Source: Crambe crambe
Taxonomy: Eukaryota > Porifera > Demospongiae > Poecilosclerida > Crambeidae
DNA length: 64,000 bases
Reading direction: 5' to 3'
Assembly (NCBI GenBank): GCA_963924555.1
Contig: OZ004586.1
Location: 6,220,501-6,284,500 of the forward strand
The notes under the pieces are model-generated. The model searched no databases. It was not told the DNA's origin and saw only the letters and a list, made by a program, of their open reading frames with translations. Shown here piece after piece: positions 49-11,688 of the stretch; the first letter of the stretch is position 1, and every line of letters begins with the position of its first letter. The position numbers and the translations under genes were made by a program.

Positions 49-3000
49 TTACAACCACGACCACTTCACTCTAGGGTCTGCTGGTCGCTTGTATCTCCTT
101 GATAGACAGATTTTTGTTAAACTTGTGTTCTGCTGTAGACTTGATAGGATTACATCAACTCCTTCTTCATATGAATCATCATCATGTAGAAATAGTATCT
201 TTAGTGAAATGTTTTTCTCTAGCATATCACTCATTGCCTTAGCTCCTTCCACTCCAATATCATTGCCTCGCATCATTAATACTAACAAGGTGGAGTTTTC
301 AGATAGTGCTGCAGCGATGTGAATGCATCCTTGTGATGTTATTTCACAGTAAGCTATATCAAGGTGTTCTAACACTGCATTAGTTTTAATCACATCACCA
401 ATGGAAGCTGCTCCAATATCTCCTATTGGGTTTGAATATAGTTTTAATTTGGTGATTGACTTATTGACGGCAAGACCTGCTGACAACTGCACAGCTCCCT
501 CACTGGAAATATCACAGTCACTTATACGCAGGTAATTTAAAACAGCATTAGTTTTAATCGCATCACCAATGGAAGCTGCTCCAATATCTCCTATTGGGTT
601 CCAATATAGTTTTAATTTGGTGATTGACTTATTGACGGCAAGACCTGCTGACAACTGCACAGCTCCCTCACTGGAAATATCACAGTCACTTATACACAGG
701 TAATTTAAAACAGCATTAGTTTTAATCGCATCACCAATGGAAGCTGTTCCAATATCTCCTATTGGGTTCGAATATAGTTTTAATTTGGTGATTGACTTAT
801 TGACGGCAAGACCTGCTGACAACTGCACAGCTCCCTCACTGGTGATACCACAAGAATCTAATATTAAAGTCCTTAAGCTCGTCAGTGCATGAGATAAAAG
901 AGTTGAGGAAATTACATCAAGTTTGTTGTCTCTAAAATCCAATTCAATAAACTGCTGGAGTATAGGATGAGGGATGTTTACAAAATGTTCAATGCTATGA
1001 ATGTCACAGTAACTGAAGTCAGCACTTGTTATTTCTCCGTTCCAAGTTACTGCTCTCATCTTCATCAACCCTTTGGAAAACATTTCTATTCCCTCATTTC
1101 CCATATTATATGAATTAGAAAAGTATAATTTCCACTTGCTTTGAGAATGCGCTATCGAATAGCCCACCACGAAGTAATCAAGAGGACTCCATTCATGAGA
1201 TGAGAACACTTGTATTGACTCACGAGATGCCAGCAGATTAGAAACTGCCTCAGTATCACCAGATTCATACATCCAATGATAGACTGCACTTTCGCAATCT
1301 GAGATATGCTCTCGAATCATCTCTGTTGTGAAGGTATTAAACTTGGAGAGACCAAAATAGAATTTCATCACCACGCTCAGGTGACCTACTTTGACATGTT
1401 CTCTTATTAGCTGCTGTTGTGTGTGGAGAGGTAACTGTGTGATGTGGTAGGCAGCTAGAAACTCTTGAAGCGTCAGATGGATGAAGTGGTAGGAGAGCTC
1501 GGCATCCTGTCCACGATAGAGCTCTTTCACCGATTCCATCAATCCTAGAGTCACTCCACTGATATCAGCACTGCTGAATGTCAGCTGTTGCTTCATGATT
1601 CCTTCCCAAGCAAGTTTGCTTAGGGCCAGCAGCTGTTGATGCACATCTGGAGGGAGGTCCTCAAGAGATCCAATCTTCCAGGACTGTTTGCCGTGTGCCT
1701 TATGACCTGAAAAGTGCTGCATCAGCAGTTTACATGTATACACTGTGTAGAGTCGGGTAACGGTGGTTGGGGGGGTTGACTCCATGTCTCGGCTCCACTT
1801 GAATACATCTGTCACTATGTTGGCAGTCACAGGAGTTTGCATGGCTGCCTTCATAGCTGGATAATAGTTCACATAGTCCAAAAATTTGCTACGGATGTCG
1901 GGATGAACCCTCTCATCCCTCAATACTCGACTTAACTCTAAAGTAGGAGTCGTGACAAGTTCGATATGTTGGTCCACTTGGATTGATGTGCTCTCGATGA
2001 TTAACTTTGTGGCCCATGGTCGGCTGGTTATGATTATGGTAGCTTTGGGTAGTTTGCGACCATGTACTAAATCAAGAAATATTGAAGATTCTTCCCTCAT
2101 TCTTTGTTCCAGTTCGTCCCAGGCTTCCAGCCACAGGACCACACCCTCTCCTTGGCTGCTCTCCACTTCCTGTGCTATGGCCCCCTGGAGCTGAGGGTGG
2201 TGGAAGAGGTCAGAGATACTTTTGGCTGACCTCACTCTGTTGTCTCGTAAGGGAAGGAGGACCAGTAGGGTGTGATCATTTAGACGTTGGCCCTGAGACC
2301 ACTTGAAACAGAATTGTTCACTGAATGTGGTCTTGCCCACACCTGGAGCTCCTTCAATCAGAACTAGTCGTGGTTTCGTTTCATGATAATATTTGGACTC
2401 AGTAACATCACCTTCTGTCATAGGGTATTTCTTGTAGATGACATCATCTTTGTCTCCCCTGATCGTACTCTTAGTGAAGCTGTCCATTTTTCTCCGATCA
2501 ATCTCCTCCTTCTCTATCCGTGCCAGTTTGAAAGCAGCGAGGTTCTTGCCCTCCATGGTGGAATAGGTGTCCTTCAGGAAGGCTGCATACTTTGGAATAC
2601 TCGAATATTTGTATTCTTTACCATCGATGGTCATGCATTCGATTTTGTGTTCCTTGAAGAATCCTTTATTGTCAGTGTTCTCCAGGTCCTGCACTAAAGT
2701 GGAGGTGATCTGAGCAGGCAGCAACCATGTGACTATCAAACTGCCGTGTGATACTTTCTTCAAGATGAGGGCAAAGGAGGGGAGGAGGAACTTGCGGATG
2801 ATGTGACCTTTCAACTCTTCTAGTTGCTCCAAAGTGCATGTCTCCCAGTCTAATTTTAGGTGGAGTACAAATTCCTTCAGATCCGCTTCGCTAGGTCTGC
2901 TTTCAACTGCTGGACAATGCTCGGCAAAGTCACACAGTCGAGTATTACGTCGAAAAGTTTCCAGTGAACTAAGATAACTCTTCATATTCTGTTTGAGAGA

Positions 3001-4732
3001 ACGGTCTCCAATGTTACGAATAAGGTTTTCTAAGAGTGTGTAATTCATAAAGTTCCAGTATTTACTCAGCTTGATCCAAATACTATTGATGGTCGACTCT
3101 TTTTCTAGTTCATTCTCAATTTGTTGGAAGAAGTCTTCGTGTTCTTCTTTGCACTTAATCGGCAATGTCATGAGGCGAGCTTTGAATTGATTGACAGTAT
3201 AATCTTTTTCAATTTTATCATATGTCCGAATTGATATGTCATTGAATTCATCTTCAAGGTCTTGTGTTTGCTGTGGAATGATTTTTTGAAGGAGACCTGC
3301 AATATACAAAATAACAGGTATTTAAAGTCTATCATTATTATTGTTATATTGTTCTGATAAGGAAACTCTCCACATTAAAAATGAAAAGGATCATGTGTAT
3401 GAAAAAATAATAAACGCAAAAAGACTTGTCTTCATGATCCCCAAGGCCCCCTTCAAGGATTGTACCTTCTTCGCTGGTGAAGAATGTTGCTGTGGAAAAT
3501 TATCCATCAGGCATAAGGCATAAATAATACACTAAGTAACTGGCTTCTATCGGGAATGAGCTAGTCATAGTTCTACTTCTAGCATACGTAGGCACCTGCC
3601 ACTCTTGCAGCTCATATATGCTTAGTGCATGCATGGCCAGCTACAACTAGCTCTACACACAGACCATCCATGACCACGAATAGTTCCATTTGCCCCAAAA
3701 CACGAAATTTTTACCCCTCGAAAATAACCCGCTATACGGTAATCTATAGCCTTCCATGTATATTCCATACAAGCAAGAAAGATTGAACACACCTTTTGGA
3801 ACTTCTCCTTCCATAGGACCTTCCATGGTAGATGGAGGTGAGGTGGAGTCCATTGGATGTGATGGAGGAGTCACAGGACAACCTACAACACATAATAACT
3901 GATTAGAATTTTTAATTTTTTTACTATCCTCTTCAATAATTACCTTTGAGAGAGATGTTGTGAGTGTTGCTAGTGGCAGTGATGGTGTCCTTGAGGAAAG
4001 GGGAGGTGAGGTTGATTTGGCAAGTGTATTGACCAGCATGGGACAGAGAGAGAGAAGGGAAAGAGAGAGTGTTGTCTAAAGACTCAACCAGCACTACTCC
4101 ATTGTGACTCCAGCAGTATGTGATGGTAGGACTGAAATCTTCAGCACCTGATACAGTGCAGGAAAGGCAGTATTTCTCCTCCACTGAGGGGTTGCCCCCA
4201 GTAATCACCACTTCGATTGGAGGGGCTATATAATATAATATTATGACACATCATTGAACTGTTTATTACTAACAGTACCTGCTAGATATATTTGGTGTTC
4301 TCTGGCTATCTTCATGGCCAGATTCTTGTGTCCCACACAGGGCTTCTTCAGAGCTTCCAATAAACCCTCCCATGAAGGTAAAGGGTCAACCATTTTCAGC
4401 CACTCGGAGAGCATCTCTCTGAAGCAAGCCTTCACGTCAGTGGGATTATCTTTTTTGATGGTCTGCAGTGTTGATTCACTGAGGTCCAACTCCAGTCCTA
4501 GGTCATACCACTCAGTCTTGGCATCCCAAATAACATTGCGCACTTTTGACAGGTTTGCTGGAACCATCTCGACTGTAAGTAGTAAATATTATTTTTATTA
4601 ATTTTCTACTTGGTACGTAAACTTCAACGTTAAAGAACTACTTGACTCACTTCCTGGACCAGGGTTGGTCTCGACGTCCCCAGCACAGTGTAGTAGACAA
4701 CATATAATGGTGATAGAGAAGGCCACAAACAA
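49..4732 (-). CDS. NLR-type gene: 2A-like leader, Death, Ig-like, NACHT, LRR
   Basis: Five exons are read by phase: 4651 upward (leader ending in the 2A-like motif), 4279-4572 (Death), 3944-4225 (Ig-like), 3793-3882 (Pro/Ser/Thr linker) and 49-3296 (NACHT-LRR, TAA stop). Every junction is phase 1. The Death exon shows the helical pattern W-x2-LG, ML-x2-WL and SW-x2-LL-x-ALK. The Ig exon has paired Cys, a Trp and an AGQYTCQ end. The last exon has Walker A GAPGVGKT (about residue 320), a Walker B-like VVLWLEAWDEL, then Leu-rich repeats from about residue 800. Cytosolic NLRs act as innate immune sensors; an Ig domain inside one is unexpected. The leader frame has an in-frame TAA at 4733-4735 just upstream and no ATG after it, so the start is unresolved or broken. 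Domain calls are firm; the joined five-exon gene is inferred from phase alone. Confidence 0.8.
365..870 (-). repeat. three near-identical 168-bp LRR-coding tandem repeats
   Basis: The same block starts at about 451, 619 and 787, a period of exactly 168 bp or 56 codons (two 28-residue LRR units). The copies differ by only a few bases, such as YSNPIGDIG versus YWNPIGDIG. The flanking LRRs are much more divergent, so these three units are a recent expansion within the coding exon. Confidence 0.9.
4655..4681 (-). other. 2A-like StopGo motif GDVETNPGP
   Basis: Read on the minus strand, these nine codons give GDVETNPGP, matching the D-V/I-E-x-N-P-G-P consensus of 2A peptides, at which ribosomes skip one peptide bond. 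About 19 mostly hydrophobic residues precede it, resembling a signal peptide. The frame continues into a GT donor after 4651 in phase 1 and joins the Death exon in frame. 2A-like sequences at the N-termini of NLR-type proteins are known from sea urchin and have been reported in sponge, where they can double as secretion signals. Activity here is inferred. Confidence 0.8.
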
Positions 4733-4792
4733 TTACACACCAAGTCCTTTCAATATCCTCTGTTTACTGCAACCTCCAGGGGCTTGGGTCAT

Positions 4793-5852
4793 ACAGGAAG
4801 TGTCTGTTAAGGGTAAAGAAAGACTCTGGATGTGTCAATAATTGGTAAAGGGTTTTCAACATGGTAAAGGGTGGTCATAAGTACTACTATATAGTACATA
4901 TATACAGTGAACTCCCTCTAATCAGGACCCCTAAAATGGGGTATTTAAAAAAGTCCTTCATAATATAAATTCACCCCTGAAATGAGGCCACCCCTCTAAT
5001 CAGGACACTCCTAAGGTGGCCGAGTCCATTGTATCTCATTTACGAATGTCAATCAATTTCAGGAAACTCTTTCACTGTAAAAAGCTTGCAATATGTTGGA
5101 GTCTCTTGGTCCTTTCACTCGTCTAAAGAACACTCTTTTAAAATGATTAATTTTCTACAATTACGATTGAGATTATAGTATGAAGTTTATACCTTGGAGG
5201 CACGAGGTATACATCACCTATGACTCTATCATCTAAAGTAATCCATGAATCATTAAAATGCCAATATTCTGACTTCCAATGCACTCATAAGAAGAGGGTA
5301 AATGATTCAACATGATCGAACTTTCTACTTAATAGCAGCTTTGAATGGAGATCTGCTCACTTATTGCTCCATTCACCTCACATGAGACTACTTTTCAAAC
5401 CAAGAAGTAAAGTACAACTGTCAGGTGTTTGCCTTAATTGGCACTGAAGCATGTAGAGCATGTTGATACAGGCCATGGTTAGCCAAGCTATTAAGAGCAC
5501 CTTGAAACGACAGTCTAACAGGAAAGCCAAGAGCACCTAGAGAACAACGACAACATGCTCAAGAAAGAACAGAAACAGCAGAGAGAACAATCTATGATTG
5601 CTTGAGTAGACAGCAATTAATTATGAGAGTCATGATGAGCGTGACTAAAGACATGATTTAGCTAGACATCAGGAAGGCTGAGTACAAGCCTTGCATGGAA
5701 GTGAACATTTGAAATTCCAATCAGAGAGCACTTAGCTACAAGAGAATATAAATTTAGAAATCAGTTCAGAGTTGACACCTAACTCTACCCTTCAAACATT
5801 GAGTGTGCACTATTAAGATATTACCTACCTAAGTCGATATAGGCCTAGCTAG
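4793..5852. other. intergenic, repeat remnants
   Basis: No coding exon is seen. Around 4910-5030 there is a repeat-like stretch (phrases such as CTCTAATCAGGAC occur twice) that resembles sequence near 16600-16700. The remainder is AT-rich with nothing recognisable. Confidence 0.4.
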
Positions 5853-8800
5853 CTAACAGTGCCAAGGCATTAGTCTTTTAAAGACAAACTTGTTATGCAC
5901 TTGTCTACTTACATTTAGCTTATAAAAAATGATATCCATTATCAGCAGAGCAAGTAAAATCACATAGTTATGGTATATGAGGGAGGTAGAGTCAGGACAG
6001 GGGTGGGAGCTGAACTGACCTATTAGTGAGAGTAGGAACTCTTCCAGGATTTTATTGGGAGAAATAGAGTGGCATTTCACTGAAGCACGAGAACGGGCAG
6101 CATTGTTCAGGCCCACACTGGCCCTCCACTGCTCCATAGCGACTGGCATGGTTACAGTGTCAGGGAGTACTACCTGTGTAAGAACAAGGCAAGGGGTGAA
6201 TTCATTATTCCACTTGATTCACTTCAGTAGATCACCAACAAGCATCTCTTATTCCCACATCACAAAGCCACAAAATCTCATGGGAAAGTGTTTACCTATT
6301 CTTATCGAGACTAAAAATCCCATCTCACTAGATAAGTATGACACTTACGCTGTCTCACTCCGAGAGGGAGGGATTACTACAACAACTCGATAGGTTAAAT
6401 AATCAGCTAAAGCAGGACTCTCTAGGTAAGACACGACAGTGTTGCTTCGTCTACATGTGTGGGAGGATCTAGGAGCTCGTAATTATGGGTGCGGTTATAA
6501 GCGTGATCACTATGCGCGCGCGTCATGCTGATATTATGAATAATAATAATAACAAGAACCAGTTCAGTATAATTACTGTTTCAAGAACATAAAAGTTTAA
6601 CTTTTTCCAGTAAGGCGATAAACTCAACTCTAGGCAGGAGCATAGTGAATCGAATATCTACAAGAAAGTAGCAAAAAGCATTTTAGTACTGAAAAGGATT
6701 CCCATGTAAATAGCTAGTTGATATTGATAGTCATAGCTATTACTGGCAATTTGTAAAAAGTACAACCCCTTATCATTTTCATACATAATGTAGCTAGCTA
6801 GCTATACTCTCTCTAGCTCTATACAGCTGTCAACCTTCATCACTGGTTCCAAACTCAGTTCCATTGAGTCCAGAGAGGTTGACCTGAGCAAAGTAATCAG
6901 CACAGGGTCCCCCTGTGTCACAGTGGATCCATGCATATGCCCCTGGGGAGTCAAGGGAGTTCTGGAGCTTGAGAGCAGGACAACCAGTCAGAGCTGCATT
7001 CAGCTGATCAAAACGACTGTACATGACATTGCGACCATATTCATGCAGTCCTAGCAAACCACTTGGACCTAAACCTTGACCTGCACACAGGGATCAATTT
7101 GGGTTAATGGTGATTACTGTTTATTTTGCCAATCAAAAAAATAATGCCCACTAGAATATAAGAAATCCATGTAAGGTTAGTCAATGATTTGTAGTGCCAC
7201 AAGAAATAAGTCAGTAGATAGCTATGTATTTATGACCAGATAAGGCCAGTTTAGGTTATAGGTGGTAGCTATTCAAGTTTAGCTAACTCTTTGGACTTAC
7301 TGAGAGTAGTCTCAAGACTGGAGAGTACTCTCAATTCAATGTCTGCTGATTGTGCTATGACAATGGATGAAGCCACATCTGACATGCTGTCTGCAAGGAT
7401 TGGATCACGAACCAAACCCCATCCAAATCTGGTACCAGCCAGTCCATCATTTTTTGAACTGTTAATACCATACATCAGTAGCTATGTGATTGATACACTC
7501 TAGCTAAACCTCTAAATACAGTAGCTACATCAATTAACATGTAAAAGATGATCAAATGCTATAGATACATGAGAGAGGAACTTCCCATGGACCCACAGTA
7601 TCCTTTGTTCAGATATTTAGCTACACTGCATAGCTAGCAAGCTATCTCTCACCTTGAGAATATCATAATGGATTTTGTTCATCACTTGGTCTATGTTGGT
7701 GAACATGGGCCAGTAATACACCATGTCTGTTATGACATGGTCTGGATCCTTCACTAGTGGTTTCTTCTTCGAGCCATCCAGGTTGTTGGGGTAACTGCAA
7801 CCATGCATTGAATTCATGGAATGGATAATATTATCGGGGGTTTACCCTTCAGCTATTTTTAAGAAGGTAGCTTGCTATAATATACTTTGTCAATTTTCAC
7901 CTCAATTGTTTTATACATAAAAACCTATAATTATGATAGCTATAGAGCTATAGCTGAGATTCCACCTTGCAGTGGAGATGCGAGCAATGATGTCAGGGTA
8001 AGAAGCATAGTAAGGGACTTGTGCTAACACATCTACTCTGTCAGGACAATTCACACTGCAACTCTTCAAGATTTTCTCAGTCAATGCTATATACCACAGT
8101 AATATAGATTACCATGGTAGCACCCATGCCTGTTACTATGTGGTAGCCTTCTGTCACAGCATTCTCAGTCTTTAAAGAAGTAAAAACAACAGATAATATG
8201 ATTAGCATTGAAACAAGTAGCTACTGAAAAAAACATAGTAATAAAGAAAAAAGCAGCATAATCTAGTCTGAAACTGCAGCTTCATATGTAGCTATACTTT
8301 CCATTACTGGCAATTTTAAAGCCAGCACACTAGCTAGTACATGTAAGCTTACTATAGAGTGTAGTCTTTGAATGGAAGAAACTAGAGGAGGTAAAGCTGC
8401 ATTAGAGATGGCAGAATGAGATGGAAACTGGTAGGCTGGTCTGTAAAATAAGATATAAATAATAAACTATTGACTAGCTGACTAGCTACGATAATTATAA
8501 GATAGATTTTTTGGTGGATAACTAAAATAAGACAGTGGGAGATGTCACAGCATTCACTCTCTCATCTACTCCTCCCTCCCCTCGAGTGTCAGACCTGTAA
8601 TGGCCAAGGATTGAAGTACAGGGGTCTGCACCAATGCTTGAATTCTGCCAGTACTCAGCGAAAACTATAGGATTGCCACCATATGCTGAGAAATTACAGC
8701 TCAGTGTGTCCTCCTTGGTCTTACAAAGAGGTCCTGAGTAACACTGGTAGCAGGGACGACCTTCATATCCTGTGCAGCTGTGAAAAAAAATAGTTTTGTT

Positions 8801-9647: not shown

Positions 9648-11688
<2,041 letters not shown>

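Follow-up and report, generated by a model that had tools for sequence, protein, structure and literature searches.

The window, a 64,000-nucleotide stretch of the genome of the sponge Crambe crambe, carries on its minus strand a predicted gene that is a member of a mostly tandem Death-Ig-NACHT-LRR family and whose leader exon, ending in a putative StopGo (2A-like) core, is interrupted by a TAA. Comparison with its relatives marks this TAA as a nonsense change confined to the one copy, whose predicted NACHT body is intact. We think it probable that intact copies have an AUG in exon 1, a StopGo leader and then the receptor, and that in the window copy the change of a Tyr codon to TAA would end translation before the hydrophobic segment and core of the leader.

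A StopGo-type leader on a predicted NLR gene

The leader is exon 2 of the gene (positions 4651..4803, minus strand), in phase 1 on both sides. It runs from 4803, where the acceptor just upstream reads ttaacag|AC (ttaacag|ACACTTCC), to the donor GGAA|gtgagt, and its minus-strand frame reads LFVAFSITIICCLLHCAGDVETNPGPG, ending in CCLLHCAGDVETNPGPG. The core octapeptide, in frame and of the form D[V/I]ExNPGP, is DVETNPGP (4655..4678, minus strand), and a hydrophobic segment and then AG lie directly before it; compared by eye with the motifs in the part of PMC12846837 cited here, LLHCAG ahead of the core is a Leu-rich stretch ending in (A/S/C)G, of the known viral kind. The TAA (4733..4735, minus strand) is codon 67 of the predicted protein. 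An in-frame ATG (4790..4792, minus strand) precedes it by 19 codons, and from the TAA on to the donor at 4651 the frame has no further ATG. On re-reading of the frame, motif, TAA and ATG lie where the preliminary description had put them, and its observation that no in-frame ATG follows the TAA holds within the leader exon.

That description also saw a StopGo-type leader spliced in phase to a Death exon of an NLR-type gene, and the predicted gene model bears this out. The donor after 4651 leads, in phase, to an acceptor before 4572 (cag|TCGAG), a predicted junction that fits a Death-domain exon (4279..4572, minus strand; PF00531 at 4280-4570, 25.3 bits, cut-off 22.6). There follow on the same strand an Ig-domain exon (3944..4225; PF13895, 29.9 bits, cut-off 27), two linker exons identified by frame and splice sites and each with a counterpart in the paralog L021 (3793..3882 and, only 24 nt long, 3466..3489), and a NACHT-LRR exon that contains the stop codon and no internal stops (49..3296; on 49-3297, PF05729 with 46.9 bits, cut-off 26.7, and PF13516 with 92.9 bits, cut-off 23.4). 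The gene thus modelled has 7 exons and 1,406 codons plus stop, every junction is GT-AG and in phase 1, and the single predicted frame shared by Death, Ig, NACHT and LRR contains exactly one internal stop, at codon 67; L021, on the same exon plan, is unbroken at 1,344 residues. With NACHT and LRR domains and an N-terminal Death-fold domain, the window gene has the features looked for in an NLR, and a five-member profile that includes its Death exon matches PIDD and FADD chains.

The Ig domain between Death and NACHT (3944-4225 in the window, and in relatives) is unusual for a soluble NLR and would be of interest if some product enters the secretory pathway. Elsewhere in the window, a minus-strand open frame at 10620-10964 resembles, by eye, part of a JmjC/FIH-type hydroxylase.

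A conserved upstream exon and the likely start

The leader is preceded, at a distance of 1.2 kb, by a conserved first exon (6020..6149, minus strand). It reads MPVAMEQWRASVG... from 6149 to 6020, opens with an ordinary AUG (6147-6149), encodes MPVAMEQWRASVGLNNAARSRASVKCHSISPNKILEEFLLSLI and ends at the donor ATAG|gtcagt in phase 1, and comparison of upstream DNA shows it as a block (~6150-6010) common to relatives whose remaining upstream sequence is little alike. A genome search with an exon-1 query mixed from residues of several copies returned 27 matches, 25 of which have a leader on their own strand 0.5-4.3 kb further downstream. Among the 31 leaders in the genome, 25 are paired with an exon 1, two more (on C3) have an EQWRASVG motif, and for four (L015, L020, L035, L038) no exon 1 was found within 6 kb. 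The exon-1 donor and the leader acceptor are both in phase 1; a pyrimidine tract and an AG lie just upstream of the leader in relatives, and by a simple in-script score the best leader acceptor is in phase 1 in 27/31, the exceptions (L034, L036, L037, L038) being distant or degenerate leaders. Exon 1 has a dN/dS of 0.20 (22 codons, 15 sequences, Nei-Gojobori). For two orphan exon-1 copies, at C9:6214246 (L059, C9:6210300-6214700) and C10:4911189 (L060, C10:4907300-4911700), the surrounding 4.4 kb shows neither a leader nor a Death exon; L059 lies ~6 kb beyond the low end of the window.

On the evidence of conservation and phase, which define the predicted exon 1, the conserved AUG at 6147-6149 is the likely start. 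The preliminary description had left a choice between a non-AUG start, passage through the stop and a lost start, a puzzle that arose because exon 1 had been missed. Its proposed comparison of start codons across leaders, run here on loci of the same genome, speaks against the ATG at 4790 and for the exon-1 ATG. The former, which we read as an internal Met, lacks a counterpart in several relatives (L016, L024, L026, L028, L029-L032), open leaders among them, and was rejected as a start on that account; the latter is retained in 17/17 readable copies, a count that leaves out L014, whose first ATG lay outside the stretch read. Nor does a lost start in the window allele find support: the likely AUG is intact and what went is the Tyr codon. 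Initiation at a non-AUG codon 3' of the TAA, where the frame is open and has TTG and GTG, was set aside with the discovery of an upstream exon that has an AUG: relatives read through from that exon, and the residues just ahead of the TAA position are also conserved, which leaves this reading hardly credible.

A stop specific to one copy

A search of the 143-Mb genome with the leader gave 31 matches, window included. At the position of the window TAA, TAC (Tyr) stands in 18 of the 30 relatives and TTC, TTT, TTG or TTA in nine; TGT stands in L038 and AAC in L035, while L037, a degenerate leader, does not keep register, and L032 and L034-L038 are not strictly alignable at this codon. Because none of the 30 relatives has a stop there and 18 have TAC, the TAA is copy-specific, and the defect suspected in the preliminary description proves to be a Tyr codon turned into TAA. 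The leader of L037 has a stop at another position. All leaders except L033 and L037 match the core pattern (29/31), a proportion biased upward by a set picked for similarity to the leader.

L033 (C9:8150756-8157324) has a second broken leader, in which one base is missing from an A-run within the StopGo core and the frame is shifted. Its NACHT stretch is open, with private changes of 102 silent versus 46 replacement; an error in the length of the A-run is possible.

Over the 2.1-kb N-terminal-NACHT stretch, 19 copies, the window's included, contain 0 stops, 12 other loci being too poorly covered for this count. The window copy has four private single-base codon changes there, two silent and two replacement. 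In a gene otherwise so sound, the TAA looks recent, or an error. The TAA may be a mistake of sequencing or assembly, or belong to just one of two alleles, for the call rests on one base in one assembly and all 18 closely aligning relatives have TAC; the window copy is, however, a distinct locus with its own flanks, on a contig other than that of the main cluster, and we regard this explanation as improbable. Where the fate of the allele is concerned, we infer from the same data a chance not far short of even that it is null, its body intact only since the mutation is recent. The four private NACHT-stretch changes would mean that little time has passed, and many paralogs could cover for the loss; against this, the predicted coding sequence has no further decay.

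Products expected from intact and interrupted copies

How such a gene would be spliced in vivo, and what its core and hydrophobic segment would do as a StopGo site and a membrane signal, we infer from the sequence as follows. Intact copies would start at the AUG in exon 1 and yield ~92 residues ending in the hydrophobic segment and StopGo core, where the ribosome would most likely skip the Gly-Pro bond. Skipping would release a small peptide with the hydrophobic segment near its C-terminus, which might behave like a tail-anchored protein, and a separate soluble receptor starting with Pro. If skipping fails, the hydrophobic segment could act as a signal-anchor and bring the fused receptor to the membrane, as sea-urchin work leads us to suppose.

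The preliminary description had taken the leader for a secretion signal as well as a self-releasing peptide. A membrane signal is a role that the hydrophobic segment could serve, but not as an N-terminal signal peptide: by hydropathy computed on the paralog L021, the most hydrophobic 19-residue stretch begins at residue 63 of the predicted protein, and with exon 1 counted the gene model puts ~62 residues ahead of it. Since the stretch begins this far in and basic residues (SKQRILKG) precede it, a signal-anchor would be expected when the product is unskipped.

In the window copy, translation from the normal start would end after 66 residues, and because the TAA precedes both hydrophobic segment and core, no receptor would be expected from this mRNA by the normal route. 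The simplest remaining route would omit the symmetric leader exon. Exon 2 being in phase 1 on both sides, exon 1 joined directly to the Death exon leaves one open frame, a predicted 1,355-aa receptor without core, hydrophobic segment or any other part of the leader, for which the TAA would be harmless or even favoured. That the gene is expressed in this leaderless form is possible, though we would bet against it: the window NACHT body is intact, and L033 also combines a broken leader with an intact NACHT stretch, yet a merely recent mutation predicts an intact body equally well.

Far less probable is a receptor made by readthrough of the TAA or by reinitiation at an ATG soon after the start of the Death exon (IEMVPAN, in the context gagATGG). 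Passage through the stop, as entertained in the preliminary description, finds no support in the RNA, where no stable or otherwise unusual structure that might favour readthrough was found 3' of the TAA (z -0.05). Ribosomes usually reinitiate poorly once they have read a frame of 66 codons, and in the other type of Death exon, found for example in L021, this ATG is absent. We return to the reading in which intact copies use the StopGo leader and the window copy is cut short ahead of it; so read, the window copy would offer, by natural loss of its leader, a way to learn what that leader does.

Relation to known 2A systems

StopGo leaders on NLRs are already published for the sea urchin Strongylocentrotus purpuratus, where reporters showed that an SpNLR2A leader does both the signal and the 2A job (Roulston et al. 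2016, PMC4981915). In the part of that report cited here, a first count gives 85/241 NLRs with such leaders, and the 26-aa N-terminal form occurs in 14/87 NCBI entries. As in the sponge leaders, a 2A/StopGo core there follows immediately on a hydrophobic stretch, towards the N-terminus of NLR proteins and in many family members, and the window leader too is predicted to be fused in frame to an NLR. The two differ in position, the sea-urchin leaders tested, as far as the cited part goes, being 26-residue N-terminal sequences, whereas here a predicted coding exon precedes the leader, the leader is not at the extreme N-terminus and its hydrophobic segment lies at about residue 63. Further differences are that the exon of the sponge leader is in phase 1 at both ends, that an Ig domain is present in the receptor, and that a similar StopGo exon also precedes Death-type exons of other gene families. 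The sponge case is set apart by its upstream exon, by a hydrophobic segment that lies internally and by the modular association with Death exons.

The viral L-rich upstream motifs 2 and 6, as given in the cited part of PMC12846837, share with the window leader the core D[V/I]ExNPGP and a Leu-rich stretch ending in (A/S/C)G, here LLHCAG. Their free position is associated there with S and is T here, and the putative core described here, read from sequence, is cellular and lies at an exon end beside a splice donor. The same part of that paper describes cellular genes as using StopGo only rarely and names the sea-urchin leaders as a likely case where partial separation matters. A non-exhaustive search of the open PMC literature found no report of StopGo/2A in sponge genes; the one joint match to NPGP and Amphimedon was PMC9925728.

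The window stop is an ordinary mutation in one copy; more notable are the family of leaders and the way in which it has spread to positions before Death domains. 2A sequences reportedly occur also in APE-type non-LTR retrotransposons, in work by Odon from 2013. Both cases concern animal genomes with 2A cores, but what was scored in the flanks here is Death, Ig, NACHT, LRR and Roc-like.

Death exons behind the leader and the origin of the leader

A same-strand match to the window Death exon lies downstream of the leader in 30/30 relatives (tblastn E up to 1e-4), that of L029 covering 40 of 96 residues only. One type of Death exon, 70-100% like the window's, is found at L019, L024 and L028-L033, and a second, 30-45% like it, in the remaining 22 relatives. 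Because both types occur among the closest leaders, the comparison points to exon shuffling behind the leader. For the type in L021, Pfam gave no Death match at E 0.001, the likeness being by tblastn only (37.5%), and a protein-database search with words from L021 residues 1-200 gave 335 candidates, none at E 0.001, in a database that may lack such animals.

A NACHT family search in which the best candidates were scored gave at least 103 matches. Among 40 NACHT matches listed in another comparison, 25 are at least 77% identical to the window's. A leader lies within 6 kb upstream in 22 of these 25; the other three are 11.6, 13.8 and 25.4 kb from a leader, the last with an internal stop. The remaining 15 matches include two fragments of the damaged L037 locus; close to the 13 that are left (37-71%) no StopGo site was seen by eye among the matches listed, which cover late contigs incompletely. 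StopGo sites near close NACHTs, and none seen near distant ones, suggest that the leader was gained within the NACHT subfamily of the window gene.

StopGo cores across the genome

Searched with a DNA pattern for D[V/I/M]ExNPGP, the 143-Mb genome gives 208 exact matches (91 + 117), and the reversed-pattern control gives 0; with up to one mismatch the figures are 238 and 4. The free position is Thr in 97/208 cores, and the other large group comprises 105 of the 208. The cores are clustered, on many contigs. The scarcity of near-misses fits selection on the core and counts against its being a relic, kept by copying and not by use, with no skipping. Many copies are indeed near-identical tandem duplicates, as a relic would predict. 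On the other side stand silent variation within the core, three upstream sites (leucine-rich, A/S/C and G) that are all of the viral StopGo kind in the cited part of PMC12846837, and a leader dN/dS below 1 (Nei-Gojobori): 0.30 among the 21 sequences of the main group, 0.25 for that group against L029-L031, and 0.41 over all pairs of 25, which include L032 out of register by a gap, with L033-L038 left out as degenerate or unalignable without gaps. A relic thus appears unlikely, about as much so as an error in the TAA call.

Outside the 31 leaders we sampled 20 of 179 further sites, spread over clusters, with some from one cluster. In 20/20 the donor with the best score is in phase 1 and 1-28 nt beyond the NPGP codons, although that of L039 is poor, and 0/20 have, by eye, an in-frame stop within 30 codons before the core. 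With a profile of five Death exons (A3), a Death-type exon was found on the same strand within the 1.7 kb read downstream in 13/20 at E below 1e-4; three of those 13 were themselves rows of A3, which makes 10/17 independent. One further match (L079) has E 0.028, and no opposite-strand Death-type match below E 0.1 was found with A3 at the 20 sites. Pfam alone finds Death at E below 0.05 in 7/16 loci, one of them above cut-off. A second Death-like profile, A2, had no match in a PDB search, and Pfam gave a single weak Death match (E 0.11) among its 5 members; hhalign relates A2 to A3 with 95.5% probability. The Death search scored the best 150 of 965 candidates.

No Death exon was found in the stretch read at 6/20 sites (L061, L062, L064, L068, L069, L070), and other downstream parts are NACHT (L078), Ig (L061) and a Roc GTPase-like part (L077). 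At L077 (C11:7079650-7081350) the StopGo exon is followed by a Death-like exon and the part that resembles a Roc GTPase (Pfam Roc, 34.8 bits, cut-off 27), and the leader would on this account not be confined to NLRs.

We tentatively propose, at somewhat less than even odds, that the StopGo exon, with its phase-1 end just after NPGP, is a shuffled front end for Death receptors, serving as many as about 200 genes from many families. Every such mRNA would be the source of both a Death receptor and a separate small peptide that seeks the membrane, with some leakage in which the two stay fused and bound to the membrane; single copies, that of the window among them, would drop the switch by nonsense and survive by exon skipping. 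If true, 208 cores, the sampled ones at phase-1 exon ends and often before Death domains, would make recoding routine in the building of receptors of innate immunity and link it with exon shuffling. Three large StopGo arrays belong to other families (C9:306738-572049, C10:4096529-4514431 and C8:604279-1089206), each on a single strand among the matches listed.
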